Below, in pieces: positions 2,886 through 29,896 of a stretch of 34,394 nt of DNA. Made by a program: the position numbers and the translations under genes. The stretch is from positions 1 to 34,394 of the IMG/VR virus record IMGVR_UViG_3300021347_000016. One strand, 5' to 3'. Every line of letters starts with the position of its first letter. Position 1 is the stretch's first letter. The notes beneath the pieces were generated by a model. That model worked only from the letters and a program-made list of their open reading frames with translations. It was not told where the DNA came from and did not search any database. The DNA is from a virus.

Positions 2886-3842
2886 ATGGGAACAAATACT
2901 TTAGTTTCAAAAAGCGATGGCCAGACTATTTCTAGTTCGGATGTGAACCAATATAGGACAGCACTTAATCAAAATATTGTTCCAAGAAATGCCAGCGGTG
3001 CACCGACCGATCAGGCCGGAGATTTAGGGACATCAACCTATGGATTCGATAAGGTTTATGCAGAAGAATATAATATAGGTGATACCGCCAGCGGACTTGT
3101 TATAAAAGAAAACGTTAGTGGCCAAATGTCATTCCAATCTAGTGGTGTGGAAAGAGTCGTATTGGACGATAATGGTATAAACGGAAGTGGAATTAAAGAT
3201 TCTACAATTGCAACGTCAAAAATTATCGATGCAAATATCACAACGGCCAAGATCGCAGATAGTAATGTAACAACGGCCAAGATCGCAGATAGTAATGTAA
3301 CTTCTGCTAAAATTGCGTCAACGGCAGTTACAACGGCCAAGATCGCAAATAGTGCAGTTAGCACAAGTCAAATCGCAGATTTAAGTATTTCAAATGGTAA
3401 AATTATAAATGGTGCAGTTACAGTTTTAAAAAGATCAATTGACTCTACTGCTTCTTCATCCTCTGGAACCTGGAGTACTAGCTCATTAACAGAAACACAA
3501 ATAAATAATGCTTTTGTTTATTTAAGCCCAGACAGTAGACCGCTAAAAATAGAATTGTTGCCTGATTACACAACAAATATATCTCAACTTTATTTAGCAA
3601 GTCCAACAACCCCAGGAGCATACACAGCGTCATTTTGCTTATATAGGGCCACAACAAAAATAGATGAAATATATATGTATAGCGTAAATTCTACTACTAA
3701 CGTTGCTAGTTGGCCTTCAGTTTGTTTTTTTACAGGAAATGAAAGCGGAGTAAATGTTATTTATGGTATACAAGTTAAGGTTTCTAGTACAAATGCTGTT
3801 ATACATGCTAACAATATGCGTGTAGTCGCTACCTATATTTAA
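2886..3842 (+). CDS. tail fibre or tail appendage protein with decapeptide repeats
   Basis: A 318-residue protein with a good AAAAGGA ribosome binding site. Residues about 110-175 are a run of ten-residue repeats of the form TTAKIADSNV, a fibre-shaft pattern known from many phage appendage proteins. Two of the repeats are identical at DNA level (30-bp units at 3241 and 3271), with a degenerate in-register copy at 3331. The C-terminal 130 residues are a Ser/Thr/Tyr-rich beta domain that could be the receptor-binding head. It lies between the hub and a second fibre gene and is likely cotranscribed with them. Confidence 0.65.
   Translation: MGTNTLVSKSDGQTISSSDVNQYRTALNQNIVPRNASGAPTDQAGDLGTSTYGFDKVYAEEYNIGDTASGLVIKENVSGQMSFQSSGVERVVLDDNGINGSGIKDSTIATSKIIDANITTAKIADSNVTTAKIADSNVTSAKIASTAVTTAKIANSAVSTSQIADLSISNGKIINGAVTVLKRSIDSTASSSSGTWSTSSLTETQINNAFVYLSPDSRPLKIELLPDYTTNISQLYLASPTTPGAYTASFCLYRATTKIDEIYMYSVNSTTNVASWPSVCFFTGNESGVNVIYGIQVKVSSTNAVIHANNMRVVATYI
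3241..3300 (+). repeat. exact tandem 30-bp repeat in fibre gene
   Basis: Two identical, adjacent 30-bp units encode the ten-residue fibre repeat. The next unit (3301-3330) is diverged, and the one after that (3331-3360) is close again. Identity at silent positions points to recent duplication or conversion. Confidence 0.9.
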
Positions 3843-3858: not shown

Positions 3859-5631
3859 ATGGCAAATCCATATGATAGTATTCCAACAAGAGTTAATAAC
3901 ACAGTTATTGACGCATCTTGGTTTAATACAATAAAAACTACTTTAGTTAATAACGGTTCCGTTAAACACAACAAATCGGCAACAACGGCACCAACAACCT
4001 CAAATGATGAAACAGAAAATTATGAACCAGGGTCTACATGGGCCGACATAACAAATGATAAATTTTATTATTGTATAGATGCATCTACAGGTTCAGCGGT
4101 ATGGTTTGAATTTGCAAATACTAGCGGAACACAAACTTTAACAAATAAAAGGTTGGACTCTCCAAAAATTAATGAAGACGTTGCCATGACGTCAACGGCA
4201 ACGGAGTTAAACCAATTAGACGGTGTTTCAGTAGGTGGCAATAGTTCGGGCGATATTATTACAACGGATGATACACAGACTTTAACCAACAAAACATTAA
4301 CAACACCGCAAGTTAATGAAGCCGTTAATCTAACATCAACTAGCACAGAATTAAATCAACTTGACGGTGTTTCTGTGGGTGGAAACAGTTCAGGCGATAT
4401 TTTAACAACCGATGATAGTCAATCGATAACAAATAAAGACATAGACGGAGGAACGGCATCAAATACTTTAAGGGTAACAATTCCAAAAAATACCACATCA
4501 AATTTAAATGCATTAACCAGGAAAGAAGGAACTATAGTCTATGATACAACTGTTTCAAAATTGAAATATGACGATGGTATTATATTATATGAACTGGCCG
4601 AAGGAACTACTTCTACAAATGAGTTGGTTAAAAGATCAAAAAATTTTGTTATAAATCCAAGATTTGACTGGTGGCGAATTAACACAACTCAAGCATCTGA
4701 CGGATATGGAAGTGACGATATGGGCTATAATGGAATTTCTGGTTATACAAGGACTCATTCTAGGCAAGCCTTTACTATTGGTCAAACAGATGTGCCTGGT
4801 AATCCTATCTACTATTCGAGGACTGTATGTACAGCGTCGGCAGGGGTTGGCGATCTTTGCTCAAAGCAAATTAGATTCGAGGACGTTAGAAGATTTTCTG
4901 GCAAAGCAATGACTTTTATTATTTATGCAAGAGAAGCGTCGGGTCTGGATTTTTCAATAGAAACAGCACAACATTTTGGAACTGGTGGAAGTCCTTCATC
5001 ATCCGTAAGAGGAATAACGGTAGATAAATTTACGCTATCTTCATCATGGGATAAATATATTGTCAATGTGACTTTTCCAAGTATAAGTGGAAAAACAATT
5101 GGAACTAACAATAACAGTTATTCAGAAGTATTAATATATTTTGGAGCAGGGTCAAATTATAATGCTTTGACTGATAGCTTAGGTCATCAATCGGGGACAT
5201 TTGATTTAAGTTACAGATTCATGATAGAAGGGACATATACTTCTATTACAGACATTCCACAAACCTATGACCCTACAGCGGACTATTTAGCTTGTTTAAG
5301 ACATTATCAAAAAAGTTATAATGACAATATCTTCGCTGGTGCCTCTGGTAGTACTACGGGTTGGACTAGATTTTCTAGTGGAACAACAACAACAAATTCA
5401 ATTTTTAATACTACTTTTTTAAAAGTGCCGATTTATAACTCTCCTTCCGCTAGTTTAACCACATACGATTTATTGGGAAATAGTGGAAAAGTAACACATT
5501 TTAGCACTCATAATATATCACCTAATATAACCGCATTAGGTAGGGGATCTTTTGAAGTATACAGTGATGCAACAACATCAAAAACAAATGGTGATATGTC
5601 ATATCATTGGGTAGTTTCAAGTCAAATTTAA
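3859..5631 (+). CDS. tail fibre / receptor-binding protein
   Basis: A 590-residue protein with AAGGA placed six bases before the ATG. It opens with a short Thr/Asn-rich domain. Two copies of a repeat of about 48 residues follow (about residues 93-188): each starts with TLTNK, contains ELNQLDGVSVGGNSSGDI and ends in TTDD. The TLTNKTL pattern is typical of fibres of many environmental phages. From about residue 255 the protein is a large beta-rich domain full of Tyr, Trp, Ser and Gly, which looks like a carbohydrate-binding jelly roll, probably the receptor-binding part. It is the last large gene of the tail operon. Confidence 0.7.
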   Translation: MANPYDSIPTRVNNTVIDASWFNTIKTTLVNNGSVKHNKSATTAPTTSNDETENYEPGSTWADITNDKFYYCIDASTGSAVWFEFANTSGTQTLTNKRLDSPKINEDVAMTSTATELNQLDGVSVGGNSSGDIITTDDTQTLTNKTLTTPQVNEAVNLTSTSTELNQLDGVSVGGNSSGDILTTDDSQSITNKDIDGGTASNTLRVTIPKNTTSNLNALTRKEGTIVYDTTVSKLKYDDGIILYELAEGTTSTNELVKRSKNFVINPRFDWWRINTTQASDGYGSDDMGYNGISGYTRTHSRQAFTIGQTDVPGNPIYYSRTVCTASAGVGDLCSKQIRFEDVRRFSGKAMTFIIYAREASGLDFSIETAQHFGTGGSPSSSVRGITVDKFTLSSSWDKYIVNVTFPSISGKTIGTNNNSYSEVLIYFGAGSNYNALTDSLGHQSGTFDLSYRFMIEGTYTSITDIPQTYDPTADYLACLRHYQKSYNDNIFAGASGSTTGWTRFSSGTTTTNSIFNTTFLKVPIYNSPSASLTTYDLLGNSGKVTHFSTHNISPNITALGRGSFEVYSDATTSKTNGDMSYHWVVSSQI

Positions 5632-5868: not shown

Positions 5869-6192
5869 TTAAGGGTCCAATAAGACCCTTTCTTCACTTC
5901 TATAAAAGTCAAATACCATCCTTGTATGCCCATCGACCTCTATTTCAACCTCATGTATTCTGAATAGACCTCCAAGAGTCCAATCGCAACCAACGACTTT
6001 TTTAAATCGACCAATACAGCTAAATCCGAGATAGGATAAAACTTTTTCTTTGTCCATGCCTAAACTCTCCAGGTCTTTGCCTTTTTGTGGGGTTTTACAA
6101 TTCGGACAAACCAAAATAAAATCTAGAATATTATCTTTTCCAAATAGATTTTTACCTTCTTCTTTCCATTCTTCGATAGTATATTTTTTCAT
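5869..6192 (-). CDS. VVA0879 family protein (zinc-binding, unknown function)
   Basis: A 107-residue protein. The opening EEWKEEGKNLFG, the CPNC pair (Cys29, Cys32), SCIGR (Cys59) and GCDW (Cys69) match my memory of the VVA0879 family, which is common in phages and prophages. The cysteines suggest one bound zinc. The family has no established function. The start codon overlaps the stop of the upstream minus-strand gene by one base (TAATG), so the two are cotranscribed and coupled. The minus-strand pair is convergent with the tail operon. Confidence 0.7.
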   Translation of the reverse strand: MKKYTIEEWKEEGKNLFGKDNILDFILVCPNCKTPQKGKDLESLGMDKEKVLSYLGFSCIGRFKKVVGCDWTLGGLFRIHEVEIEVDGHTRMVFDFYRSEERVLLDP

Positions 6193-7181
6193 TAATATTT
6201 TTTCCTTCTTTGTGGGTGTTGTGGGGCAAGAAAAACCAACTTAGTTTGACTTAAAGCAGGGCCGCATTTTTGCCAGCGAGCATGACCTTTTCGATACCAT
6301 GACTTGCCCTGTTCATATGCGCGGACTTTTTCAATATTTAAGTCTAAATAGGTATAAGGTTTACTAGAGTAATGTTTTGTTTCAAATTCTCTTTTACTTC
6401 TTTTTCTTGAAAATTCAGCAATTCTTTCCTGTATTATTGTATTCCTTGAAGGGTTTTGTATGTAAATAATAGAGTTAACGACAGTGCTAAATATTTGCAA
6501 AAGATGCGGTCTCAAAAGATCTCTATATTTGTCACTTTTATCATTCTGGAAGCACATTCTCAGACTGTTCGGAACGATCGGCGCCACATTCAAAGAGTCA
6601 TCTTTTATGCTTCCATGCGCGGCAATTAGTGATTTAAAGATACGAGCAATAATAACAATAACGGCAAGATCTTTACTCACACAAAATGCGTAAGCTGTAA
6701 TGTCGTCAAATATGTTATTTTCCAATTTTGAAAAGTGGAAGCACATCCCTTTTTTTACATAAAGCAAATTTTTTATTATATCGTGATATTTTTCGACCGG
6801 TGTTACGTTTTTTAAAATATTTGTTAATGTTGAGCTAACAGAATAGTTAATGTAATCTTTTTTACAGAAAGTTACTAAACATCCACTTATAAAGGTTAAA
6901 CTCTCAAATGTTACGTCTTGATGTGGTCCTTCTTCATTTAAAAATTCTTCAAAAAAAGATGCATAGTCATTCTCACTTTTGTTTAATATATATAAAAAAT
7001 CATCTTTATTTTTGTATATATTCTTACCCAGGGCATGTTTTATCCCGTCTTCTTTTACAGAAGCAATAAAGAGATGCAGTACAATAAACAAGTCTGTATG
7101 TATCTTCTTCTTTTTTTCCTTGAAGAGTTCTTCAAGTGACTTGTCGTCAAAGATTTCATGCAAAAATTTTTTTATAAACAT
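6192..7181 (-). CDS. hypothetical phage protein with C-terminal RGHxRxQ-like motif
   Basis: A 329-residue, mostly helical protein. The last 45 residues (WYRKGHARWQKCGPALSQ, then a hydrophobic strand, then PQHPQRR) resemble a C-terminal motif I remember from many unrelated phage proteins, of the form W-x2-RGHWRxQ-x2-Gxxxs-x2-+-vwI-x-P. The motif is basic and aromatic and may bind nucleic acid, but its role is unknown to me. The gene is first in a two-gene minus-strand operon. A promoter candidate (TTGTCA, 17 bases, TAAATT) lies just upstream on the minus strand. The ribosome binding site is weak. Confidence 0.6.
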   Translation of the reverse strand: MFIKKFLHEIFDDKSLEELFKEKKKKIHTDLFIVLHLFIASVKEDGIKHALGKNIYKNKDDFLYILNKSENDYASFFEEFLNEEGPHQDVTFESLTFISGCLVTFCKKDYINYSVSSTLTNILKNVTPVEKYHDIIKNLLYVKKGMCFHFSKLENNIFDDITAYAFCVSKDLAVIVIIARIFKSLIAAHGSIKDDSLNVAPIVPNSLRMCFQNDKSDKYRDLLRPHLLQIFSTVVNSIIYIQNPSRNTIIQERIAEFSRKRSKREFETKHYSSKPYTYLDLNIEKVRAYEQGKSWYRKGHARWQKCGPALSQTKLVFLAPQHPQRRKKY

Positions 7182-12026: not shown

Positions 12027-12284
12027 TTACTCTCCAAACATTTCTTGTTGTTGCTCTTTTTCAGAAGGCAATTTTTTTATTACACCTTTTTTAAAAGACT
12101 TTATATTTATATCCAGTGCGTTACATATTTTTGTTAAATCACTTTCTGTCAATACTCTCCAGCCGTTCAGAAATTGATTTAAAATTGTATAGTGTAGACC
12201 TGTCATTTTTGCCAAATCCCTTTGCTTTATTTCGTTCTCAACAAGAAACAATTTTAATTTGAAGCCTGACTTAAATTTATCCAT
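12027..12284 (-). CDS. XRE/Cro-like helix-turn-helix regulator
   Basis: An 85-residue protein. Residues about 10-65 make a Cro/C1-type helix-turn-helix: KLFLVENEIKQRDLAKMTGL is the first half, HYTILNQFLNG the recognition helix, and DLTKICNALDINIKSF the closing helix. It is first in the minus-strand operon with RecT and divergent from the replication gene at 12418, so it may set the switch between the two directions. Its own promoter (TTGACA, 17 bases, GATAAC) and candidate operators lie in the 130-bp gap. It is short for a lysogenic repressor and closer to Cro in size. Confidence 0.8.
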   Translation of the reverse strand: MDKFKSGFKLKLFLVENEIKQRDLAKMTGLHYTILNQFLNGWRVLTESDLTKICNALDINIKSFKKGVIKKLPSEKEQQQEMFGE

Positions 12285-12326
12285 AATTTTCCTTTAAATC
12301 TTTATACTATACTAAAAAGATAGACA

Positions 12327-12355
12327 GTTATCACATTTATTAGTAAAGTTGTCAA
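12327..12355 (-). promoter_or_regulatory. leftward promoter of the regulator/RecT operon
   Basis: On the minus strand, a perfect TTGACA (12355-12350) is followed after 17 bases by GATAAC (12332-12327). It drives the XRE regulator and the genes behind it. Direct repeats AGTTATCA (12326) and AGTTGTCA (12347), 21 bp apart, cover the -10 and -35, so two regulator molecules could bind one face of the DNA. Confidence 0.6.
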
Positions 12356-12356
12356 C

Positions 12357-12383
12357 TATAATCTTTGTAAATAAGTTTACAAA
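12357..12383 (+). promoter_or_regulatory. rightward -10 element and operator-like inverted repeat
   Basis: A perfect TATAAT (12357-12362), without a good -35, is followed by the inverted repeat TTTGTAAA-TAAG-TTTACAAA (12364-12383). The repeat would sit on the transcription start for the replication gene at 12418. The half-site TTTGTA/TACAAA recurs upstream of the ParB-like gene (19747), so it may be a shared operator of this phage. Confidence 0.5.
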
Positions 12384-12417
12384 TAAAATAATTGCGTATT
12401 TGGCCTTGAGGTAAAGA

Positions 12418-13866
12418 ATGAAAAGTAGTGTAGTGATTAGTCGTTTAATACAAAAATGGAAGCTTGTGGACGATTTAAAGTACTTTAAAGTAGCAATGAG
12501 TTTAATTCTTGAGTCGGGGTCAACTGACAGGGTTTTCAGGGGACATAAAATAAAAAAAGGAGAGTCGATTTTTACGCTTAATTATTTAGAAAATAAATTT
12601 AAAAATACTAAACCGCAAATAACTAAAAGAAATATTAGAACTATCCTTAAAAATTTAGAAAAAGAAAAAATTATAACAAGGAGAGTTATAAAAGAGAAAA
12701 ATAAAAGCTTATTTACAGCGGTTAGCGTCATAGATCTTAATTTATGCAGTGTCAATGAAGCTAAAATAGATAAAAAAGAAAGCAATACAAAAAAATGTAT
12801 AAAGAAAATACAGAATGACGCACAAAATGACGACATATTGACTCACCAGATAAAAGAGTTTAATTCAAAAATTGCCACACTAAATTTAGAAGAAAACCAA
12901 GATATACAGGGTATTTACGTTGACGGTAAATACTTGACTGACACATTAAAAGAGATAAATCAAAGTTTAGGAAATAAAAAAGTAACGCATGTAATCAATG
13001 CACTTATAAATGACCTTGAAATCAAAAATAAAAGGGAAAATAAACAAAATAAACTTTTACACAGTACGCAAGGTGTATTAAAATGTGGAAAAAAACAGCA
13101 TATACTTGATAAAAGTACTTCATCTGTGGTTACAAAAGAAAATTTCCATGATAAAATATCAAACGAACCAACGCATAAAATCGGTCCTGCCAAAACAGAT
13201 AAGGATTCTTCGCTTACTCCCTCAAGAAATGATTTTCCTTATGAAAAAATAAAGAAAAAAATCAAAGAAAACCATACAGTGAAAAAAACAAACGATGCTA
13301 TAGAAAGTATCGTCATTTACAACCTGTGTCATATGAAAAAAATGGAACCAGTCCAGGCAGCGGCATATAGATCAACACATGACATTTCGGCATTTTGTTC
13401 AAAAGAAATCCACGAAACAATACATGCAATTTGTAGTTTAGTGATCCCATACTTTAATAGATTTAGCCCTAAATATAGATATAAGATAAGGTCTAACAAG
13501 AGTGAATGGTGTATATTAGAATGTTATTATTTAAAGAATTTAAGAGACCCAAAAGACTATATTGCTATAATTGACTATGCTTCCACCTTAATAATAGATA
13601 GATATAATCCAAATAAATTTTCTGTAAAAAATAATATCGCATTGAGTGAATATTTCACTCTTCAAACGATCTTTATTAACAAGGGACTAGAATATTTATC
13701 TCTCTCAGCAGAAAGAAATGAGACGCCCATAGTATTGCCGAAAAAAGACGACTTCACAGAGAGACTAGATCAGACATTGAAGGAACTAGAAGAAGAAGAA
13801 AAAAAGTTACAATTAGAAAAAGAGTTGAATTATCAAGAAGGGTTAAAGCTTTTAAATAAAAAGTAG
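12418..13866 (+). CDS. replication initiator-like protein with N-terminal winged helix
   Basis: A 482-residue protein. Residues 5-115 look like the winged-helix domain of phage replisome organisers: helices around FKVAMSLILESGS, then FTLNYLENKF, PQITKRNIRTILKNLEKEKIITRR and a strand pair. A long Lys/Asn-rich linker follows, then a helical C-terminal domain from about residue 290 (VYNLCHMKK ... AICSLVIPYF). The gene opens the plus-strand replication module, ahead of four loader-like proteins. By analogy with lambda O it would bind the origin, possibly inside this gene, but I see no clean iterons. The function is inferred from position and fold pattern. Confidence 0.6.
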   Translation: MKSSVVISRLIQKWKLVDDLKYFKVAMSLILESGSTDRVFRGHKIKKGESIFTLNYLENKFKNTKPQITKRNIRTILKNLEKEKIITRRVIKEKNKSLFTAVSVIDLNLCSVNEAKIDKKESNTKKCIKKIQNDAQNDDILTHQIKEFNSKIATLNLEENQDIQGIYVDGKYLTDTLKEINQSLGNKKVTHVINALINDLEIKNKRENKQNKLLHSTQGVLKCGKKQHILDKSTSSVVTKENFHDKISNEPTHKIGPAKTDKDSSLTPSRNDFPYEKIKKKIKENHTVKKTNDAIESIVIYNLCHMKKMEPVQAAAYRSTHDISAFCSKEIHETIHAICSLVIPYFNRFSPKYRYKIRSNKSEWCILECYYLKNLRDPKDYIAIIDYASTLIIDRYNPNKFSVKNNIALSEYFTLQTIFINKGLEYLSLSAERNETPIVLPKKDDFTERLDQTLKELEEEEKKLQLEKELNYQEGLKLLNKK

Positions 13867-13960: not shown

Positions 13961-14548
13961 ATGAAAGATTCAATGTTTTGGCAAACACTATTTGATAGAG
14001 CAGAAAAATATTTTATAAATAGCATTCCAACGATAGATAGAATCGAAATCATAAAGATTTTCCATCGATCAACTGAGAATCAAATTATTAATATATTTAA
14101 AAAAACAATTGAGAGTAGAAAAATAGGTCAATCTTTTCCTGCACCATCCTATTTTTTAAATAAAGTCAATATACCTAAAGGAATTGATTGTAATATATGT
14201 GAAAGTGGGATCGTTTTTGCGAAGAATAAAAATCTAGATGGAGAGTTAGATTTAAATAGCTATAATATAAAATTTTATTGTAATTGCAATAATGGAGCAA
14301 TCGAAAAACGCAATGATGAGTTGGCAAATTGTTTACAAAAAATTTCTGTATGGGATGAAAGATACTTAAATGAATTTACTATAAGAAAATTATACTTGGA
14401 TAATTATTTCAAAACAAAAAAAGAAAAAAATGATTTTATGAAGGATTATTATTTACAAATAGACATTAAAGCAGCAAAAGCACAGAAAAAAAATTACACT
14501 GCCAAACATGCAAACTTCTATTTACAAGAAATAATAGATTTAATATAA
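13961..14548 (+). CDS. helicase-loader-like protein with zinc-binding C-terminal half
   Basis: A 195-residue protein. Residues about 28-68 (IIKIFHRSTENQIINIFKKTI ... FPAPSYFLNKV) follow the pattern R/H-x-Lx-x-I ... F-x-x-x-I-x-x-F...lP-s-x-x-I. The same pattern is seen in the three genes behind it and in the N-terminal domain of G39P-type helicase loader/inhibitor proteins. Cys77, Cys80 (CNIC), Cys107 and Cys109 (CNC) then form a probable zinc site, as in some primosomal proteins. It likely helps load the host DnaB helicase at the phage origin. AAGGA lies rather far (11 bases) from the ATG. The family call is from pattern memory, not a search. Confidence 0.5.
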   Translation: MKDSMFWQTLFDRAEKYFINSIPTIDRIEIIKIFHRSTENQIINIFKKTIESRKIGQSFPAPSYFLNKVNIPKGIDCNICESGIVFAKNKNLDGELDLNSYNIKFYCNCNNGAIEKRNDELANCLQKISVWDERYLNEFTIRKLYLDNYFKTKKEKNDFMKDYYLQIDIKAAKAQKKNYTAKHANFYLQEIIDLI

Positions 14549-15393: not shown

Positions 15394-15555
15394 ATGATAA
15401 AAATAATAATGCTCATTATAATAATATTAATTCCTATATCTGCCCTCTATGTATACTTAATAAATGAAAATAAATCGACTGATCCTTATTTGTTAATAAT
15501 ACATTTAATTTTGTGTATAGTTGGGTATAAATTATTAACAATTTATACAAAATAA
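15394..15555 (+). CDS. small two-helix membrane protein (holin-like candidate)
   Basis: A 53-residue frame with two hydrophobic segments (about residues 2-22 and 32-46) joined by a short polar turn (NENKSTDP) and ending in YTK. Size and shape fit a small holin or other membrane protein. No clear ribosome binding site is present. An overlapping frame from ATG 15387 (26 codons, with a CPLC pair) overlaps the previous stop and may be the translated one instead. In AT-rich DNA hydrophobic frames arise easily, so this is tentative. Confidence 0.4.
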   Translation: MIKIIMLIIIILIPISALYVYLINENKSTDPYLLIIHLILCIVGYKLLTIYTK

Positions 15556-19745: not shown

Positions 19746-19788
19746 TTTTGTACAATATACAAAAGAATAGTAAAATCATTGTATACAA
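19746..19788 (+). promoter_or_regulatory. inverted repeats upstream of the ParB-like gene
   Basis: TTTTGTA-CAATA-TACAAAA (19746-19764) and TTGTATACAA (19779-19788) are two inverted repeats with the half-site TTGTA/TACAA. A further half-site (TACAAAA) ends on the start codon. The half-site also occurs in the operator-like repeat at 12364. They probably regulate the ParB-like, methyltransferase and packaging genes. Confidence 0.45.
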
Positions 19789-19799
19789 GGAAGTACAAA

Positions 19800-20465
19800 A
19801 TGGAAGTCCAAATAAAATGCAAAGAAAGAATAGAATTAGTCGATCCAAAAACTTTAAAAAAACATCCTGACAATAATAATATACACACAGATGATCAACT
19901 AGAAAGATTAATAACCATTATAAAAGAAAATGGTTTTACAAGCCCTATCACTGTTTCAACTAGAAATAATTGTATCACAAAAGGTCATTTACGATTAGAC
20001 GCTGCTTTGAAAATGGAATTAAGTCAAGTCCCTGTTATTTACAATGATTATAAAAATGAAAAAGATGAATACGCAGATCTAACCGCAGATAATGAAATCG
20101 CAAGATGGTCAGAATTGGACAGAAAAAAAACAATAAAAAAAATAACTGAATTAGAAAGTAGTGGGGATAGATTTAATTTAGACCTATTAGGCGTAAAGGA
20201 CACTTCTATATTTCAAGAAATGGAAGCACAAAGTCAGGCGTTTCAAGATGAAATGAATAGTAATTATGACGATGATATCGGTATAGAACCCGATGACGAT
20301 GATTTTATTGTTGATGATAAAAAGGTTAAGGAAGTTAAAAGCAGAGAAGACATTAAAGATAAGTACATTATTATTGTTGAATGCGATAATGAAATAAAAC
20401 AAGAAAATCTTTTTGAAGAATTAAAAAGAAGAAATTACAAATGTAAAATAATGAGTGACCTATGA
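19800..20465 (+). CDS. ParB/Srx-fold N-terminal domain protein
   Basis: A 221-residue protein. Residues 10-115 are a ParB-like N-terminal domain: VDPKTLKKHPDNNN, then LERLITIIKENGFTSPITV, then KGHLRLDAAL (62-70), the counterpart of the GERRxxA box of ParB proteins. Phages often place this domain next to, or fused to, a DNA methyltransferase, as here: the genes overlap by ATGA. The central DNA-binding helix-turn-helix of true partition ParB is not visible, and the C-terminal part is acidic and unlike the ParB dimer domain. So it is probably not the protein that reads the parS-like sites in this phage. The start at 19800 is set by AAGGAAG. Confidence 0.7.
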   Translation: MEVQIKCKERIELVDPKTLKKHPDNNNIHTDDQLERLITIIKENGFTSPITVSTRNNCITKGHLRLDAALKMELSQVPVIYNDYKNEKDEYADLTADNEIARWSELDRKKTIKKITELESSGDRFNLDLLGVKDTSIFQEMEAQSQAFQDEMNSNYDDDIGIEPDDDDFIVDDKKVKEVKSREDIKDKYIIIVECDNEIKQENLFEELKRRNYKCKIMSDL

Positions 20466-21514
20466 TCAAAGGTCTAACTTTGCCTTATACTGGCAACAAA
20501 AGCGGTATTATACATAAATTAAGTAAGTGTTTTCCAAAAACAGAAAACTTTTATGATATTTTTGCCGGAGGATTTGCCGTAACAAGTTTTATGATAGCAA
20601 ATCATTATAATAAGTATTCTAATTTCTATGCAAACGACATCAACCCTATGACAATTGATCTTTTTAAAAGGGCGGTTAGCGGAGAGTTTAACCCAAAGAT
20701 TTTTACGCCTAAGTGGATTTCAAGAGAAGAATTTGATTTAAAAAAAAATACAGATTCTTATATTAGATACTGTTGGAGTTTTGGGAATAATGGAAAGACT
20801 TATCTGTTTTCAACTGACATAGAAGAATATAAAAGATCTATGCACCAGGCCGTTGTTTTTGATGAGTTTAATGATCTAGTTAAAGAGTCATTAAAAATAA
20901 ATAAATGGCCGTTAAAGTGTAATTCTATCTATAAAAAAAGATTATATCTGAGAAGAAAAATAGAATATTATAGAATTAATAATTGCTTGCCAAAAGTTTT
21001 GTGGAATTTTTTAAGTAAAAGTCAGTTAGAACAATTAAAAAAAATAAATCTGAATCAATTAGAGCGATTACAGCAATTAGAGCGATTACAGCAATTAGAG
21101 CGATTACAGCAATTACAGCAATTACAGCAATTACAGCAATTAGAGCGATTACAGCGATTAGAAAATAAAACTCTCCAAGATAGAATAATAACAAAACTTG
21201 AAATTACAAATTTGGATTACTCAAAAATAGATATAAAACCAAATGCAGTAGTTTACTGTGACCCTCCATACAAAGAGACTTTTGGTTATGGTGTTAACTT
21301 TAACACGGAAAAATTTTTAGACTGGGCAGATTCATTAAACGAAATTGTCTTTATATCTGAATACAATATAAGCGATAAAAGATTTTCTTTATTCTGGAGC
21401 AGTAGCAAAAGATGCACGTATTGTAGTGGAGAAGGAAATTCAGAAGCAAAAAACAAACTTGTAACCGAAAAACTTTATATAAATAAATACGGAAAAAACA
21501 AATTAATGAGCTAA
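20462..21514 (+). CDS. dam: D12-class N6-adenine DNA methyltransferase with tripeptide repeat
   Basis: A 350-residue protein of the Dam/D12 class: YTGNKSG near residue 9 and FAGGF (motif I, S-adenosylmethionine site), and YCDPPY (Asp267-Tyr270, motif IV, catalytic). It methylates adenine, GATC being the usual target of the class, and may protect phage DNA or control packaging. Residues 200-232 are an unusual run of eleven tripeptides (LER, LQQ) encoded by 9-bp tandem repeats, placed between the target recognition part and motif IV. Start overlaps the previous stop (ATGA). It lies upstream of the terminase genes. Confidence 0.85.
   Translation: MIKGLTLPYTGNKSGIIHKLSKCFPKTENFYDIFAGGFAVTSFMIANHYNKYSNFYANDINPMTIDLFKRAVSGEFNPKIFTPKWISREEFDLKKNTDSYIRYCWSFGNNGKTYLFSTDIEEYKRSMHQAVVFDEFNDLVKESLKINKWPLKCNSIYKKRLYLRRKIEYYRINNCLPKVLWNFLSKSQLEQLKKINLNQLERLQQLERLQQLERLQQLQQLQQLQQLERLQRLENKTLQDRIITKLEITNLDYSKIDIKPNAVVYCDPPYKETFGYGVNFNTEKFLDWADSLNEIVFISEYNISDKRFSLFWSSSKRCTYCSGEGNSEAKNKLVTEKLYINKYGKNKLMS
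21059..21157 (+). repeat. 9-bp coding tandem repeat (11 units)
   Basis: Eleven in-frame units TTA-SAG-CRA (TTAGAGCGA or TTACAGCAA and one mixed form) encode Leu-Glu-Arg or Leu-Gln-Gln. The unit is a multiple of three, so slippage would change length but keep the frame. It lies in the middle of the methyltransferase. Confidence 0.95.
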
Positions 21515-21525
21515 GGGAGGCAAGG

Positions 21526-21906
21526 ATGCCAAAAGGAAAAGGAAGACCGTCAATTTTTGACGACCCTAAACGGGACTATGAACTAAAGCAATTAATGAGA
21601 TTAAGACCGACATTAAAAGACTGTGCTTCATTTTTTGACTGCCATACAGACACTATTGAAAAGTATATAAAAAGACAATATAAAATAAAATTTTCGGAAT
21701 TTCGTGAAACGCATATGGTTCACACCCGATTTAATATTATTAGAGCATTGTTAAAAACGGCAGAAGCAGGCAATGTAAAAGCGATCGAATTGGCACTTGG
21801 ATATTTTCTAAAATGGCAAAATAAATTTGAAGTTAAGTCGGATGGAAAAATAGATATTAAGTATAATATTGTACAAAATAAATCAGACTTAGAAAATGAA
21901 TCATAA
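21526..21906 (+). CDS. terS: terminase small subunit
   Basis: A 126-residue protein. Residues 1-15 are basic (PKGKGRPSIFDDP). A helix-turn-helix-like part follows (LRPTLKDCASFFDCHTDTIEKYIKR), then a helical oligomerisation region (VHTRFNIIRALLKTAEAGNVKAIELALGYF), as in many small terminase subunits that bind the packaging start site. A strong GGGAGG site precedes it. Its end overlaps the large subunit gene by 11 bases. Confidence 0.75.
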   Translation: MPKGKGRPSIFDDPKRDYELKQLMRLRPTLKDCASFFDCHTDTIEKYIKRQYKIKFSEFRETHMVHTRFNIIRALLKTAEAGNVKAIELALGYFLKWQNKFEVKSDGKIDIKYNIVQNKSDLENES

Positions 21907-23122
21907 CTTAAACCTTTTACAAGGGCAGTATGATTTTATAACAAGTGATGCAAAAAAATCTTTATTACTAGCAGGTATAGGCTATGGTAAAAGTTTTTCG
22001 GGATCTCATTTTTTATTAAAAATGCTATCTGAATATCCAAAAGCAAAAGGATTGATCACTGCAAATACCTATACTCAACTTATAAATGCAACCCTGGAAT
22101 CATTTATTGGAGAGTTAGACCATTTAAATATACCCTTCAAATGTATTTTGGGCGGAGCAAAAAAACATATAAAAATATTTAATACAAAATTATATCTTTA
22201 TTCTTTAGAACGCTATGACGCAATTAGGGGAATTGAGGTAGGTTACTGGTGGTCAGATGAGTCGGCATTTGCGAAGCACGAGGCGATACAAGTTTGTAGA
22301 GGGCGATTGAGAGATAGAAATGGTCCCCTGTATGAAAGACATACTACAAGCCCCAACGGTTATAACTGGACATATGAAGAATTTGAAAATAAAGACGGCA
22401 AAAACAAAAATAAGAAAATCGCACTTTTTAGAGGGATCACAAAAGATAACATTTTTTTACCAGAGGGTTATTATGATTCTCTTTTAGAAGACTATGGAGG
22501 TATTAATAACCCTCTTGCAAAACAAGAATTGTTCGGTCAATTTGTTAATCTACAAAGCGGTGCGATATATTGGGCGTTCGATAGAAATATACATGTAAAA
22601 CCATTTACTCCAAATAGATCTTTTCCTGTTTATGTAGGACAAGATTTTAATATAGATAATATGGAAGGTGTATATATACAGTATATAAGTGGTGTTTTTT
22701 ATTGCTTTCAAGAAAATATTTTAAAGCATCACGGGGCAAACACGGACGCAGCGGCCTCTAAAATATGTAATGATTTAATTCCAAAATATAATGTTATTGT
22801 TATTCCAGACTCTACAGGTAAGGCCGTTAAAACTTCCTCAAGTGGGTCTGACATTGAAATTCTTAAACGATATGGTCTCAATGTGGCAACAACAACAAAT
22901 CCTTTTATAAGAGACCGTCAAAATACAGTTAACATATTACTGAAACAGGGTAGAATAATAATTGATCCGTCATGTACGAATTTAATTAAAGAATTTGAAA
23001 CTATATCATCAAGGGATAAGGAAGGCGATAAGGCACATGCAAGTGTTGCCCTTGGTTATGTAGTTTATAAATTAGAACCTCTAAGGCAAAAAAAGAAACA
23101 ACAAAGGACTGTCAGACTATAA
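21896..23122 (+). CDS. terL: terminase large subunit (ATPase and nuclease)
   Basis: A 408-residue protein. GIGYGKS (27-33) is Walker A, YWWSDES (Asp121, Glu122) Walker B, and TTSPNG the coupling motif. Nuclease part: VGQDFN (Asp250) and PDSTGK (Asp305). The third acidic position, usually in a HASDALGY-like motif, is HASVALGY here, with Val384 in place of Asp. It pumps DNA into the prohead and cuts it. The valine means a neighbouring acid (EGD at about 376-378) must serve, or the nuclease differs. A parS-like palindrome begins one base after its stop. Confidence 0.85.
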   Translation: MNHNLNLLQGQYDFITSDAKKSLLLAGIGYGKSFSGSHFLLKMLSEYPKAKGLITANTYTQLINATLESFIGELDHLNIPFKCILGGAKKHIKIFNTKLYLYSLERYDAIRGIEVGYWWSDESAFAKHEAIQVCRGRLRDRNGPLYERHTTSPNGYNWTYEEFENKDGKNKNKKIALFRGITKDNIFLPEGYYDSLLEDYGGINNPLAKQELFGQFVNLQSGAIYWAFDRNIHVKPFTPNRSFPVYVGQDFNIDNMEGVYIQYISGVFYCFQENILKHHGANTDAAASKICNDLIPKYNVIVIPDSTGKAVKTSSSGSDIEILKRYGLNVATTTNPFIRDRQNTVNILLKQGRIIIDPSCTNLIKEFETISSRDKEGDKAHASVALGYVVYKLEPLRQKKKQQRTVRL

Positions 23123-23123
23123 A

Positions 23124-23139
23124 TGTTCCACGTGGAACA
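23124..23139. promoter_or_regulatory. parS-like site 1 (perfect 16-bp palindrome)
   Basis: TGTTCCACGTGGAACA is a perfect palindrome and identical to a chromosomal parS sequence known in proteobacteria (the bacterial consensus is TGTTNCACGTGNAACA). It lies in the 36-bp gap between terminase and portal, one base after the terminase stop. A 16-mer like this is not expected by chance in 34 kb of AT-rich DNA. Confidence 0.8.
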
Positions 23140-23158: not shown

Positions 23159-24571
23159 GTGTTAAAATTAAAAATTGAAAAAATTTTAGATTATATAGCT
23201 AGTAAAAGTGATTTTTTAAAATTTAATGAAGATATATTTAATATTTTAGAAGGTGATTTAGTTAGATATGTTGATAATGCCCTAGAAAATCAATTGTTAT
23301 CGAAACAGGCCTATGAAAGTGCCAGAGAGGGGATCAGTCCGATTAATATTATAAAAAAGGTGACTGATAAATTAACAAAATTATATGCATCAAATGTTAA
23401 AAGAATTGTTACTGTAGACAATGAACCATCGGAAAAAAATCAAGAAATTGTAGACTATTATGTAAAAGAATTAAATGTCGATAAATTTATGAATGACTTT
23501 AATTATTTTATGAATAGCACTAAGACAAGTTTAATCGAACCATATTTATCTAGGGAAAATAAACCAAAAATTAGAGTAATACCTTCACATCAATATTTAG
23601 TCTGGTCAGATGATATCGTCGAACCAAATAAACCAACCGTGTTAATTAAATTAATGGGCAAAAAAAAATTTGGAGACAAAGAATTAGATGTATATTTTCT
23701 TTATTCAGATGACGAGTTTATAGCAATAAACAGTGAAGGTGACATTTTAAATGATTATATGGAAGGAAATGAAGGGTTAAATGTTTATGGGGTTATTCCT
23801 GCCACCTACGGCAATATGAGTGATTATTTATTAATGCCTAAACCAGACACAGACCTTTTCAGAATGTGTATACTTTTCTGTCTATCATTTACGCATAGCA
23901 ATGACGCGATTAAATATATGAGCTATAGTATTGTGTATGGGGTCGACATTGAAAGCGATAGCCTAGAAAGAAATCCAAATGTTTTTTGGTATTTTAAATC
24001 AGAACAAAATAAAACACCGCAGATTGGACAAATAAAACCAGAGGTAGACACTTCAAAGGTGATTGAAAATATAATGGTGCAGTTTGATAGTTGGTTAGAA
24101 ACTAAAGGAATCAAGGTTAGTAATGCAGGCAGGGCGAGAGGAGATAATAATTTATCAGGTTTATCAATGATTATAAAAGAAATGGACACAATCCAGGCAT
24201 TAAAAGGCCAAATGAGTAAAATGGAATTTACAGAAAATGATTTTTGGAAACGAATGGCCAAAATACATAATTATTGGGTTTTAAATGGAATTGTTAAAGG
24301 CAAGGAACTAATGGATGAAAATATAAATGTAAAAGTTGAGTATGAATTGCCAAAACCAATAGAATCAGAGGACGAAAGACTTGATCGAGCGATTAAGGCC
24401 AGAAAAGAAATGCTTGCAACAACTAAAGAGGCCATTAAAATATGGAAGCCTAGATTAAGCGAAGAAGAATTAAATCAAATGATAGAAGAATTAGAAGAAG
24501 AATTTTCTTTTAAAAGTCAAGAAAATTTAAGTATAGAATCAAATGATCAAGAAAATGACCAGGAGAGTTAA
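23159..24571 (+). CDS. portal protein (SPP1 gp6-like)
   Basis: A 470-residue protein in portal position. It starts with GTG at 23159, supported by AAAGGA six bases upstream; nearby ATG codons are out of frame or stop at once. The sequence has the portal pattern: GISPINIIKKVTDKLTKLYAS, then PYLSRENKPKIRVIPSHQYLVWSDD, GVIPATYGN and a long C-terminal helix (EDERLDRAIKARKEML). The acidic C-terminal tail is Glu/Asn-rich. The portal is the dodecameric gate for DNA at one capsid vertex. A parS-like palindrome lies just upstream of its ribosome binding site. Confidence 0.75.
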   Translation: MLKLKIEKILDYIASKSDFLKFNEDIFNILEGDLVRYVDNALENQLLSKQAYESAREGISPINIIKKVTDKLTKLYASNVKRIVTVDNEPSEKNQEIVDYYVKELNVDKFMNDFNYFMNSTKTSLIEPYLSRENKPKIRVIPSHQYLVWSDDIVEPNKPTVLIKLMGKKKFGDKELDVYFLYSDDEFIAINSEGDILNDYMEGNEGLNVYGVIPATYGNMSDYLLMPKPDTDLFRMCILFCLSFTHSNDAIKYMSYSIVYGVDIESDSLERNPNVFWYFKSEQNKTPQIGQIKPEVDTSKVIENIMVQFDSWLETKGIKVSNAGRARGDNNLSGLSMIIKEMDTIQALKGQMSKMEFTENDFWKRMAKIHNYWVLNGIVKGKELMDENINVKVEYELPKPIESEDERLDRAIKARKEMLATTKEAIKIWKPRLSEEELNQMIEELEEEFSFKSQENLSIESNDQENDQES

Positions 24572-27873: not shown

Positions 27874-27912
27874 ATGTGAACTATTTATTTACCCTTGATT
27901 GATAGTTCACAT
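27874..27912. terminator. long inverted repeat (possible terminator)
   Basis: ATGTGAACTAT (27874-27884) is perfectly complementary to ATAGTTCACAT (27902-27912), with 17 bases in between. Only a short T-rich stretch follows (TTTAATT), so termination is probably incomplete. It would reduce transcription from the capsid genes into the neck genes. Confidence 0.45.
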
Positions 27913-27917
27913 TTAAT

Positions 27918-27933
27918 TGTTCTACGTGGAACA
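27918..27933. promoter_or_regulatory. parS-like site 2 (15/16 to the palindrome)
   Basis: TGTTCTACGTGGAACA differs from site 1 by one base (C to T at the sixth position). It begins five bases after the inverted repeat and 38 bp ahead of site 3, which is identical. Confidence 0.75.
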
Positions 27934-27955: not shown

Positions 27956-27971
27956 TGTTCTACGTGGAACA
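27956..27971. promoter_or_regulatory. parS-like site 3 (identical to site 2)
   Basis: TGTTCTACGTGGAACA with the same flanks as site 2 over about 26 bp (TTTAATTG before, TTTT after), so the pair arose by duplication. Seven T follow, then the ribosome binding site of the 27992 gene. A short RNA hairpin with T-run is an alternative reading for this copy alone. Confidence 0.75.
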
Positions 27972-27991
27972 TTTTTTTGTAAGGAATGAAA

Positions 27992-29896
27992 ATGTCTTTG
28001 CCTCCACATATAAATGATAGAGTAAAAGAAAGTTATGTAACAGTTGGATCAAGGGATTCTGTGCAACAAGTTTTACCAGTAAGCGGAGCAGGCGATACCT
28101 TAGACATAGATTCAACTGGTCAACTTGAGGTCGTTTTATCGGGTTATGTAGATGATAATAATAGTTCATCCACACCTTTGAGTGCAGGAGCAACGTTTAC
28201 AGGGACAAAAACCGAAGTTATTGATTATGGTATAATTTATGTAAATGTTTATTCTGACGTTGCAAGTGCATCCGACGGCCTCGAAATTCAATTTTCTAGT
28301 GACGGTGTAACGTGGCGTGGAGGGCTTGGGGATACATTTACAATAAGTGCAAATCTAGATAAAACATTTTCCTTTCAGGCACATAAAAAATACTTTAGAG
28401 TGCTTTATCAAAATGGTGGAAGTGATCAAACGTCATTCGACTTGCAAACAATTTTAAAAAAGGTCAATGGAAAGCCTTCAAGTCACAGAATTCAAGATTC
28501 AATTTCTGAAGAAGACGATGCCGAATTAGTTAAGGCCGTTATCACTGGAGAAAATGCAAGTGGAAATTTTGTAAATGCATCACTGACTAACGGTGGAAAC
28601 TTTAAAGTATCATTAGAAGAATTAGAATCAGGCGTTAGTGTAAACAGTAATTCACAATTGAAAATTACTCAATTTGATTCTTCTGGAAATGAGTTATTTA
28701 CAGGTGATAAGCCTGCAAGAGTAGATTTCCCCCCAACCTATTTTGATATTTTTGGAAAATTTGAGACCGCAGCACCTTACAAGCTTTATGAATATAGTGC
28801 TGGTTATCCTTTAGACACAACAAGATACATTGATACATTAACCTCTGGTAGTGGAACCGTTGTTAGAAATGCAACAAAAACACAAATTGAATTTACAACA
28901 ACTACCGCAAGTGGTGACAGAGCATTATTTCAGACAAGAAGAAATATTCAGTATAATAAGGCAAATGCTCAACAAATATTTTTCATCTATAGACCTAACC
29001 CACTAACAAATAGAAGAGAAAGATTTGGACCCCACGATGATAACAATGGAACCTTTTTTGAAATTGAAGGATCTAACGTTAATATAGTTGTTAGATCTAA
29101 TACTAGCGGTAGTATTGTTGACACTAAATTTGCTCAAGCAGATTGGGACGACCCATTAAATGGCACTGGAGCAAGCGGAAAAACTATCGACTGGACAAAG
29201 CAAATAGTTTTCAAAATTGAATTTGGTTGGCTTTCTTCAAGGGGAATAAGATATTTTATTGATATTGAGGGGGATATAATATTAGTAAAATCTTATTTTG
29301 TATCAGACACATTAACAGTGCCTTATTTTGCAGTCCCTACACTTCCTTTTAGAGTCGATGTAGAAAATATAAATACAACTGCACAGACACAAGTAAACTC
29401 TCTTTCTTGTATTGCATTTTTATCATCGGGAGCGCAACAACAAGAAGGCCCTATTAGAAATATTTCTTCTGATACAACGGCAGTCAGTGCATCGACCACG
29501 GAAACAATTGTTGATGGCATTAGATTAAATTCTTCTTATCTCAATGGATCATTACAACCGATAAGATTATCCATATTGCCTGCCTCTGGAAATACTTTTT
29601 TACGATATAGATTAAGATATAACCCAACCCTAACAAGTGCTGTATGGGCCACAGGGACAGGAATTCACGATACATTAACGTCAGTATCCAGTTTTACAGG
29701 TGGCGACATTATATTAAGTGGAATTGTTGCATTGAGTAACCAAGCAACGCAAGCGTCAATTATTTCAGAATTGAAAGAGGACGTCTATGTCGGTCGGGAC
29801 GCTTCCAATAACCCTGACGCTTTAGTTTTAACCGTTGAAACCACCTCTAGTTCTGGGACTTTACATTATGATTTTGACTTTAAAGAATATATTTAA
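27992..29896 (+). CDS. large head/neck structural protein
   Basis: A protein of 634 residues. The ATG at 27992 is chosen because AAGGA ends six bases upstream; the ATG at 27986 touches that site. The protein is beta-rich with many Ser, Thr, Gly and Asn residues (TGTKTEVIDYGIIYVNVYSD, FQAHKKYFRVLYQNGG). A middle part, about residues 250-500, looks like a concanavalin-like or jelly-roll domain. It is probably an external decoration or a neck whisker-like protein. Gene position between capsid and tail completion genes supports a structural role. Family not recognised. Confidence 0.5.
   Translation: MSLPPHINDRVKESYVTVGSRDSVQQVLPVSGAGDTLDIDSTGQLEVVLSGYVDDNNSSSTPLSAGATFTGTKTEVIDYGIIYVNVYSDVASASDGLEIQFSSDGVTWRGGLGDTFTISANLDKTFSFQAHKKYFRVLYQNGGSDQTSFDLQTILKKVNGKPSSHRIQDSISEEDDAELVKAVITGENASGNFVNASLTNGGNFKVSLEELESGVSVNSNSQLKITQFDSSGNELFTGDKPARVDFPPTYFDIFGKFETAAPYKLYEYSAGYPLDTTRYIDTLTSGSGTVVRNATKTQIEFTTTTASGDRALFQTRRNIQYNKANAQQIFFIYRPNPLTNRRERFGPHDDNNGTFFEIEGSNVNIVVRSNTSGSIVDTKFAQADWDDPLNGTGASGKTIDWTKQIVFKIEFGWLSSRGIRYFIDIEGDIILVKSYFVSDTLTVPYFAVPTLPFRVDVENINTTAQTQVNSLSCIAFLSSGAQQQEGPIRNISSDTTAVSASTTETIVDGIRLNSSYLNGSLQPIRLSILPASGNTFLRYRLRYNPTLTSAVWATGTGIHDTLTSVSSFTGGDIILSGIVALSNQATQASIISELKEDVYVGRDASNNPDALVLTVETTSSSGTLHYDFDFKEYI

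Follow-up and report, generated by a model that had tools for sequence, protein, structure and literature searches.

The phage genome analyzed here, a stretch of 34,394 nucleotides (hereafter the window) whose two ends repeat each other over 142 bp, carries three intergenic sites that match parS exactly or nearly so. The 16-bp palindrome TGTTNCACGTGNAACA is exact in site 1 and has one mismatch in sites 2 and 3. We propose that, with these three palindromes, the phage carries copies of the centromere site of chromosomes, and that they are probably recognized by the ParB protein of the host.

parS palindromes in the late region of the window

Site 1 lies between the genes of the terminase large subunit (terL) and the portal protein, as the first-pass annotation had reported. 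It starts 1 base past the terL stop codon TAA (23120 to 23122), and 19 bases separate its end from the GTG start (23159) of the next gene. A direct family match was sought for this gene and none was found; the portal call comes from phrog_533, which was matched by three of the eight members of the homologue alignment. The annotation had also named the 16-mer as the chromosomal ParB site of many bacteria, and it is indeed identical to parS2 and parS3 of Pseudomonas aeruginosa (PMC4368675) and to parS of Bdellovibrio bacteriovorus (PMC10547168). It had treated the portal site as the only one, but two more were found in a 129-bp gap of the structural region, ahead of a virion structural gene (Table 1). 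Each of these sits in an identical 26-bp repeat, the repeats being 38 bp apart. A 10-bp inverted repeat (TGTGAACTAT / ATAGTTCACA) at 27875 to 27911, just 5′ of sites 2 and 3, is possibly a second regulatory element.

Table 1. Sites and neighboring or candidate reader genes in the window
Feature	Position	Strand	Remarks
Small Cro/C1-type helix-turn-helix protein	12027-12284	-	HTH_26, E 1.6e-8; other candidate reader
ParB-like protein	19779-20465	+	ParB N-terminal (CTPase/nuclease-type) domain only; PF02195 weak
Dam-type DNA methyltransferase gene	20462-21514		Contains a 9-bp repeat
Terminase large subunit gene (terL)	21896-23122	+	phrog_2, E 7.6e-35; directly 5′ of site 1
parS site 1	23124-23139	.	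Exact palindrome TGTTCCACGTGGAACA; inside 36-bp terL-portal gap
Portal gene	23159-24571	+	Homologues match phrog_533; directly 3′ of site 1
parS-like site 2	27918-27933	.	TGTTCTACGTGGAACA; 1 mismatch, one arm perfect
parS-like site 3	27956-27971	.	TGTTCTACGTGGAACA; same sequence as site 2, 38 bp further on
Virion structural protein gene	27986-29896	+	phrog_1645, E 6.9e-58; directly 3′ of sites 2 and 3

The first-pass annotation had considered a palindrome of this length improbable by chance. This was wrong: 1.3 palindromes of at least 16 bp and of any sequence are expected in the window, and another one, TTTAAAGTACTTTAAA, is present at 12474. The improbable part is the match to parS, not palindromy as such. 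An exact TGTTNCACGTGNAACA is expected 9e-5 times and was observed once, while sequences with at most one mismatch to it are expected 0.0045 times and were observed three times.

ParB of P. aeruginosa has its highest affinity for this palindrome, followed by sites with one perfect arm, which are still bound, and it prefers an intact CACGTG core; the weak site parS5 carries a TGTTCT arm (PMC4368675), as do the sites of the window family with a C-to-T change. If the host ParB resembles that of P. aeruginosa, the sites of the window family should lie between moderate and strong.

Recurrence of the sites in relatives and other phages

A scan of related phages, proposed in the first-pass annotation, found the site again in relatives, and many deposited phages have it too. 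The closest relative, L124 (a 22-kb contig; TerL and capsid 77% and 84% identical to those of the window), contains three sites: CGTTCCACGTGGAACA at 3790, TGTTCCACGTAGAACA at 4763, and an exact copy at 14512. All three are intergenic and lie just 5′ of a gene, yet their locations differ from those in the window, and the genes that they precede, RusA among them, are not homologous to the site-flanked genes of the window. The terL-portal junction of L124, which spans no more than about 10 bp, has no parS site. Our initial idea of a site confined to the terL-portal gap was dropped, since L124 has sites elsewhere only. No sites were found in the available fragments of relatives with TerL identities of 56 to 69%, and most relatives are without sites. 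L124 also shares two adjacent genes of unknown function on the minus strand of the window (5869 to 6192 and 6192 to 7181; 55% and 34% identity, respectively), for which there was no match to a defence family.

More distant carriers were reached via a tail gene and then via a portal profile; a search with the single portal sequence found no relatives, whereas the profile search yielded 71 loci. In all of these carriers, a pair of sites occupies the terL-portal gap. The pair consists of one exact site and one TGTTCCACGTAGAACA in L194/L220, of two exact sites in L200/L264 and in L222, of two TGTTCCACGTAGAACA sites in L195/L206 and in L205, and of two TGTTCTACGTGGAACA sites in L239. The pairs end 24 to 29 bp ahead of the portal start, and their spacings are 42, 24, and 34 bp. 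The portal proteins of these phages are 30 to 36% identical to that of the window, and the terminases about 23 to 32%. Portal relatives without sites are for the most part nearly gapless at this junction, which measures −13 to 39 bp and, in one case, 56 bp. In the portal tree, the six carriers form a single clade (SH-aLRT 100), with the window as an occurrence of its own, which amounts to two changes.

When the terL-portal gaps of the window, L239, L205, L220, and L222 were aligned, the invariant columns were nearly only those of AATGTTC-ACGT-GAACA. This footprint indicates that the 16-mer is kept by selection. All 12 sites of the window, L124, L194, L200, and L195 are intergenic, and none lies inside a gene. 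Five of them are exact; in six, one arm has a C-to-T change at its position 6, and the remaining site has a T-to-C change at position 1. The variation thus falls on another position than the N in the consensus of bacteria.

Beyond the relatives, viral contigs were scanned with the word TGTTCYACGTGGAACA, which was found in at least 120 stretches compared to 8 for the matched control palindrome TGTTGGACGTCCAACA (whole collection). Among the matches listed, perfect palindromes outnumbered one-letter neighbors by 106 to 17, and 36 of the 106 were intergenic, compared with 9.4 expected (crude gene calls). The CCGG form of parS was found in 108 deposited phage records and the TTAA form in at most 315, an upper figure because some Listeria records (OR84...) resemble fragments of assemblies and are possibly host DNA. 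The records are redundant, and the number of independent lineages is far below these counts. The matched control palindrome was found in 0 deposited records, as were six shuffled 18-mers, a control that detected full 18-letter matches only. The C-to-T variant (TGTTCCACGTAGAACA type) is rare in deposited phages (3 records).

Among the carriers of the CCGG form are Pseudomonas phages (20), Alcaligenes phage QDWS535, and Xenohaliotis phage pCXc, and among those of the TTAA form are phages of Listeria, Microbacterium, Arthrobacter, Gordonia, Bacillus, Lactobacillus, and Ruegeria. The phi29-type Bacillus phages B103 and Goe1 have TGTTTCACGTGAAACA, and Pseudomonas putida phages of the KoPa-4 or Roomu-2 type have a noncoding site. 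Among bacteria, the CCGG form is used by P. aeruginosa and Bdellovibrio and the TTAA form by Caulobacter (PMC4368675, PMC10547168). The phage variants thus mostly follow the type of the host. For hosts other than these three bacteria, the match is a matter of general knowledge. The Mycobacterium records, 27 in number, belong to one phage group, nearly duplicate each other, and have the word within a gene. None of the matches listed came from Escherichia or Salmonella phages, while 10 Klebsiella phage records with the 16-mer were among them, mostly with the word inside genes of RaK2-like jumbo phages; this host group is not known to have a chromosomal ParABS.

Several carriers show arrangements of their own. 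Phage pCXc has exact sites at 15413, 15822, and 17747 in 36 kb, and the abalone shriveling syndrome-associated virus has one exact site and one TGTTCCACGTAGAACA, at 3708 and 4600. In marine podovirus-like contigs (L038, L042, L055, L088, L106, L111, and L113), an exact parS directly follows the major capsid gene; the cultured kin HTVC023P, CRP-901, and Pag-Yong1 have no parS at this place. Contig L060 combines both forms, TGTTCCACGTGGAACA and TGTTTCACGTGAAACA, 24 bp apart at 310 to 349, 5′ of a terminase gene. Several small single-stranded DNA microviruses carry the exact word, some copies lying outside annotated genes, and in one group, the bajarodino viruses, the TTAA form occurs five or six times within about 6 kb.

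The host of the window phage was approached from its genes. A search with a TerL profile and RecT against 84,980 genomes found no relative. Shine-Dalgarno-like motifs precede 25 of the 45 window genes, compared to 6% in the background, a frequency that argues weakly against a Bacteroidota host, although the tape-measure gene matches a Cellulophaga phage.

Candidate readers and rival functions

The first-pass annotation had noted that the only ParB-like protein of the window lacks a helix-turn-helix, and profile searches agree. Its match to TIGR00180 is partial (positions 4 to 115 of 186), and PF17762, the ParB helix-turn-helix, was found neither in it nor in the rest of the window nor in 13 additional records, 11 of them with parS sites; of 14 control genomes, 9 were positive in the same search. 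An AlphaFold model of the protein reached a mean pLDDT of 37, and the absence of a DNA-binding domain is therefore taken from the profile searches. On these domain matches, the protein is unlikely to be the reader of parS. Neither a ParA of family PF13614 nor a tyrosine integrase was found in the window. As regards ParB-type centromere binders, the window has only the ParB-like protein devoid of the helix-turn-helix, and parA is lacking. The phage late region, in a window with neither PF13614 nor HTH_ParB, is likewise not the setting of a chromosomal centromere, and we regard the sites as parS by sequence and not as a chromosomal centromere by location. The neighboring Dam-type methyltransferase gene contains an in-frame 9-bp repeat at 21038 to 21187 (CAATTAGAG / CGATTACAG units) that encodes an LERLQQ-type stretch.

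With a Cro/C1-type protein encoded in the window, the palindrome could instead be the operator of a phage regulator that equals parS by accident, and phages are known to have dispersed intergenic operators. Mycobacteriophage L5, for example, has stoperators, short sites scattered among intergenic gaps as in the window, which however lack symmetry and serve a repressor that the phage itself encodes. We consider an operator improbable: the promoter gap of the regulator's own gene (12285 to 12417), where an operator should be, contains no parS match with up to 3 mismatches, and the coincidence would need repeating in many unrelated phages. RNA hairpins acting as transcription terminators are likewise unlikely, with only a slim chance of being the explanation. 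Sites 2 and 3 do lie where L124 has a strong terminator, seven T residues follow site 3, and paired sites are able to co-fold (−27.6 kcal/mol in L239). Single sites, however, form weak hairpins (−4.7 to −7.1 kcal/mol; z −0.9 to −1.6), a long T run follows site 3 only, the ACGT loop is as invariant as the stem, and the L195 variant disrupts the sense-strand hairpin in each site. The 19 to 29 bp between site and portal start are, moreover, too short for a promoter, so that a terminator would silence the portal gene. Chance or contamination has a negligible probability. Although 16-bp palindromes in general are expected in the window, the rarity of a match to parS, the conservation of the site across lineages, and the plainly phage nature of the contig stand against it, and the 16-mer footprint in relatives rules it out.

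Two further explanations accept ParB as the reader and differ in what the binding would achieve. Site-bound ParB might block or time transcription into the portal and tail operons, which would suit sites just ahead of the ribosome sites of structural genes in the window, L194, L195, and L239, and 5′ of the major structural protein gene in a gap of Pseudomonas phage KPP25; ParB also silences nearby genes in P. aeruginosa parS assays (PMC4368675). This control of late genes is doubtful, since L124 has its sites before nonhomologous genes, including RusA, and the marine podovirus-like group has the site after the capsid gene and not before it. A role specific to the portal gene, which the first-pass annotation had envisaged as repression or timing, did not hold up, as the closest relative has no site there and three elsewhere. 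That the number of sites (two or three) is kept while their position shifts between the window and L124 fits a function of the whole molecule (positioning, segregation, or decoy) better than portal control, whereas the twofold use of the terL-portal gap leaves room for a local role. Alternatively, many phage copies with two or three parS sites each might titrate host ParB and disturb host segregation or cell cycle control. Such a decoy would accord with sites whose number stays at two or three while their position is flexible, and with carriers such as KPP25 and Listeria phage P100plus, both virulent types. It is nevertheless rather unlikely, given that many deposited carriers have one perfect site per genome, few for titration, and that it leaves the recurring terL-portal position unexplained.

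Possible use of the host partition machinery

We therefore return to the recognition of phage-borne parS by host ParB. From the sequence, number, placement, footprint, and recurrence of the sites and the lack of a canonical phage reader, we infer ParB binding, clamp loading, and a gain for the phage. Host ParB would contact the 16-mer with its helix-turn-helix, form a closed clamp that depends on CTP, and move by sliding into the late genes next to the site. Host ParA (and SMC) would then treat phage DNA coated with ParB as if it were a chromosome origin, and phage copies would be spread over the nucleoid and passed to both daughters while the phage persists or replicates extrachromosomally. 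Lacking a recognizable integrase, ParA, and DNA-binding ParB, the phage would fit an extrachromosomal existence in which the partition system of the host is borrowed. Taken as a whole, with most weight on recognition, this account of phage-borne parS, host ParB, and partition-like handling is the one toward which we lean, while positioning or segregation as the main benefit is put forward tentatively.

Several observations weaken it. Many carriers are virulent phages or microviruses without a plasmid state, which speaks against segregation as a general reason. Reading by host ParB is made less secure by the C-to-T change in the CACGTG core of half of the 12 family sites (the core preference being that of P. 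aeruginosa ParB), by the rarity of this variant in deposited phages and the lack of sites in most relatives, and by the 16-mer in Klebsiella phages.

parS itself is known, as are phages with their own ParABS (P1, N15, and RedRock [PMC7157519]). These plasmid prophages resemble the window in having a centromere-like site on phage DNA and a genome without integrase, but they encode their own ParA and ParB and have their own centromeres, which in RedRock consist of eight 8-bp direct repeats (PMC7157519), whereas the window has neither gene and a host-type site. Chromosomal parS of P. aeruginosa and Bdellovibrio is similar in its 16-bp palindrome and in occurring as several sites per replicon, some degenerate with one intact arm; the phage sites differ in lying in a late region, away from oriC and parAB, on a replicon without parAB. 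The CtrA sites of alphaproteobacterial phages are reportedly also phage-borne sites for a host cell cycle DNA-binding protein (PMC9437464), but CtrA is a transcription factor, whereas ParB is a partition clamp. The literature searched (open-licence papers) contained no report of host-type parS on phage DNA without parAB.

Host-type parS without parAB may be a widespread and repeatedly evolved strategy of tailed phages and microviruses, one that exposes viral DNA during infection to host ParB clamps and, via these, to ParA or SMC; on this generalization our judgment is evenly balanced. If the proposal is true, the host chromosome would bear TGTTCYACGTRGAACA near its origin, and a single 16-letter word would suffice to scan phage genomes. 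Cultured phage-host pairs (Pseudomonas, Bacillus, Listeria, and actinobacterial phages) make the idea testable. Host-type parS would also offer a weak clue to the hosts of uncultured phages. If host ParB loads on phage DNA, a widespread bacterial segregation machine would be a target that phages use or disable.
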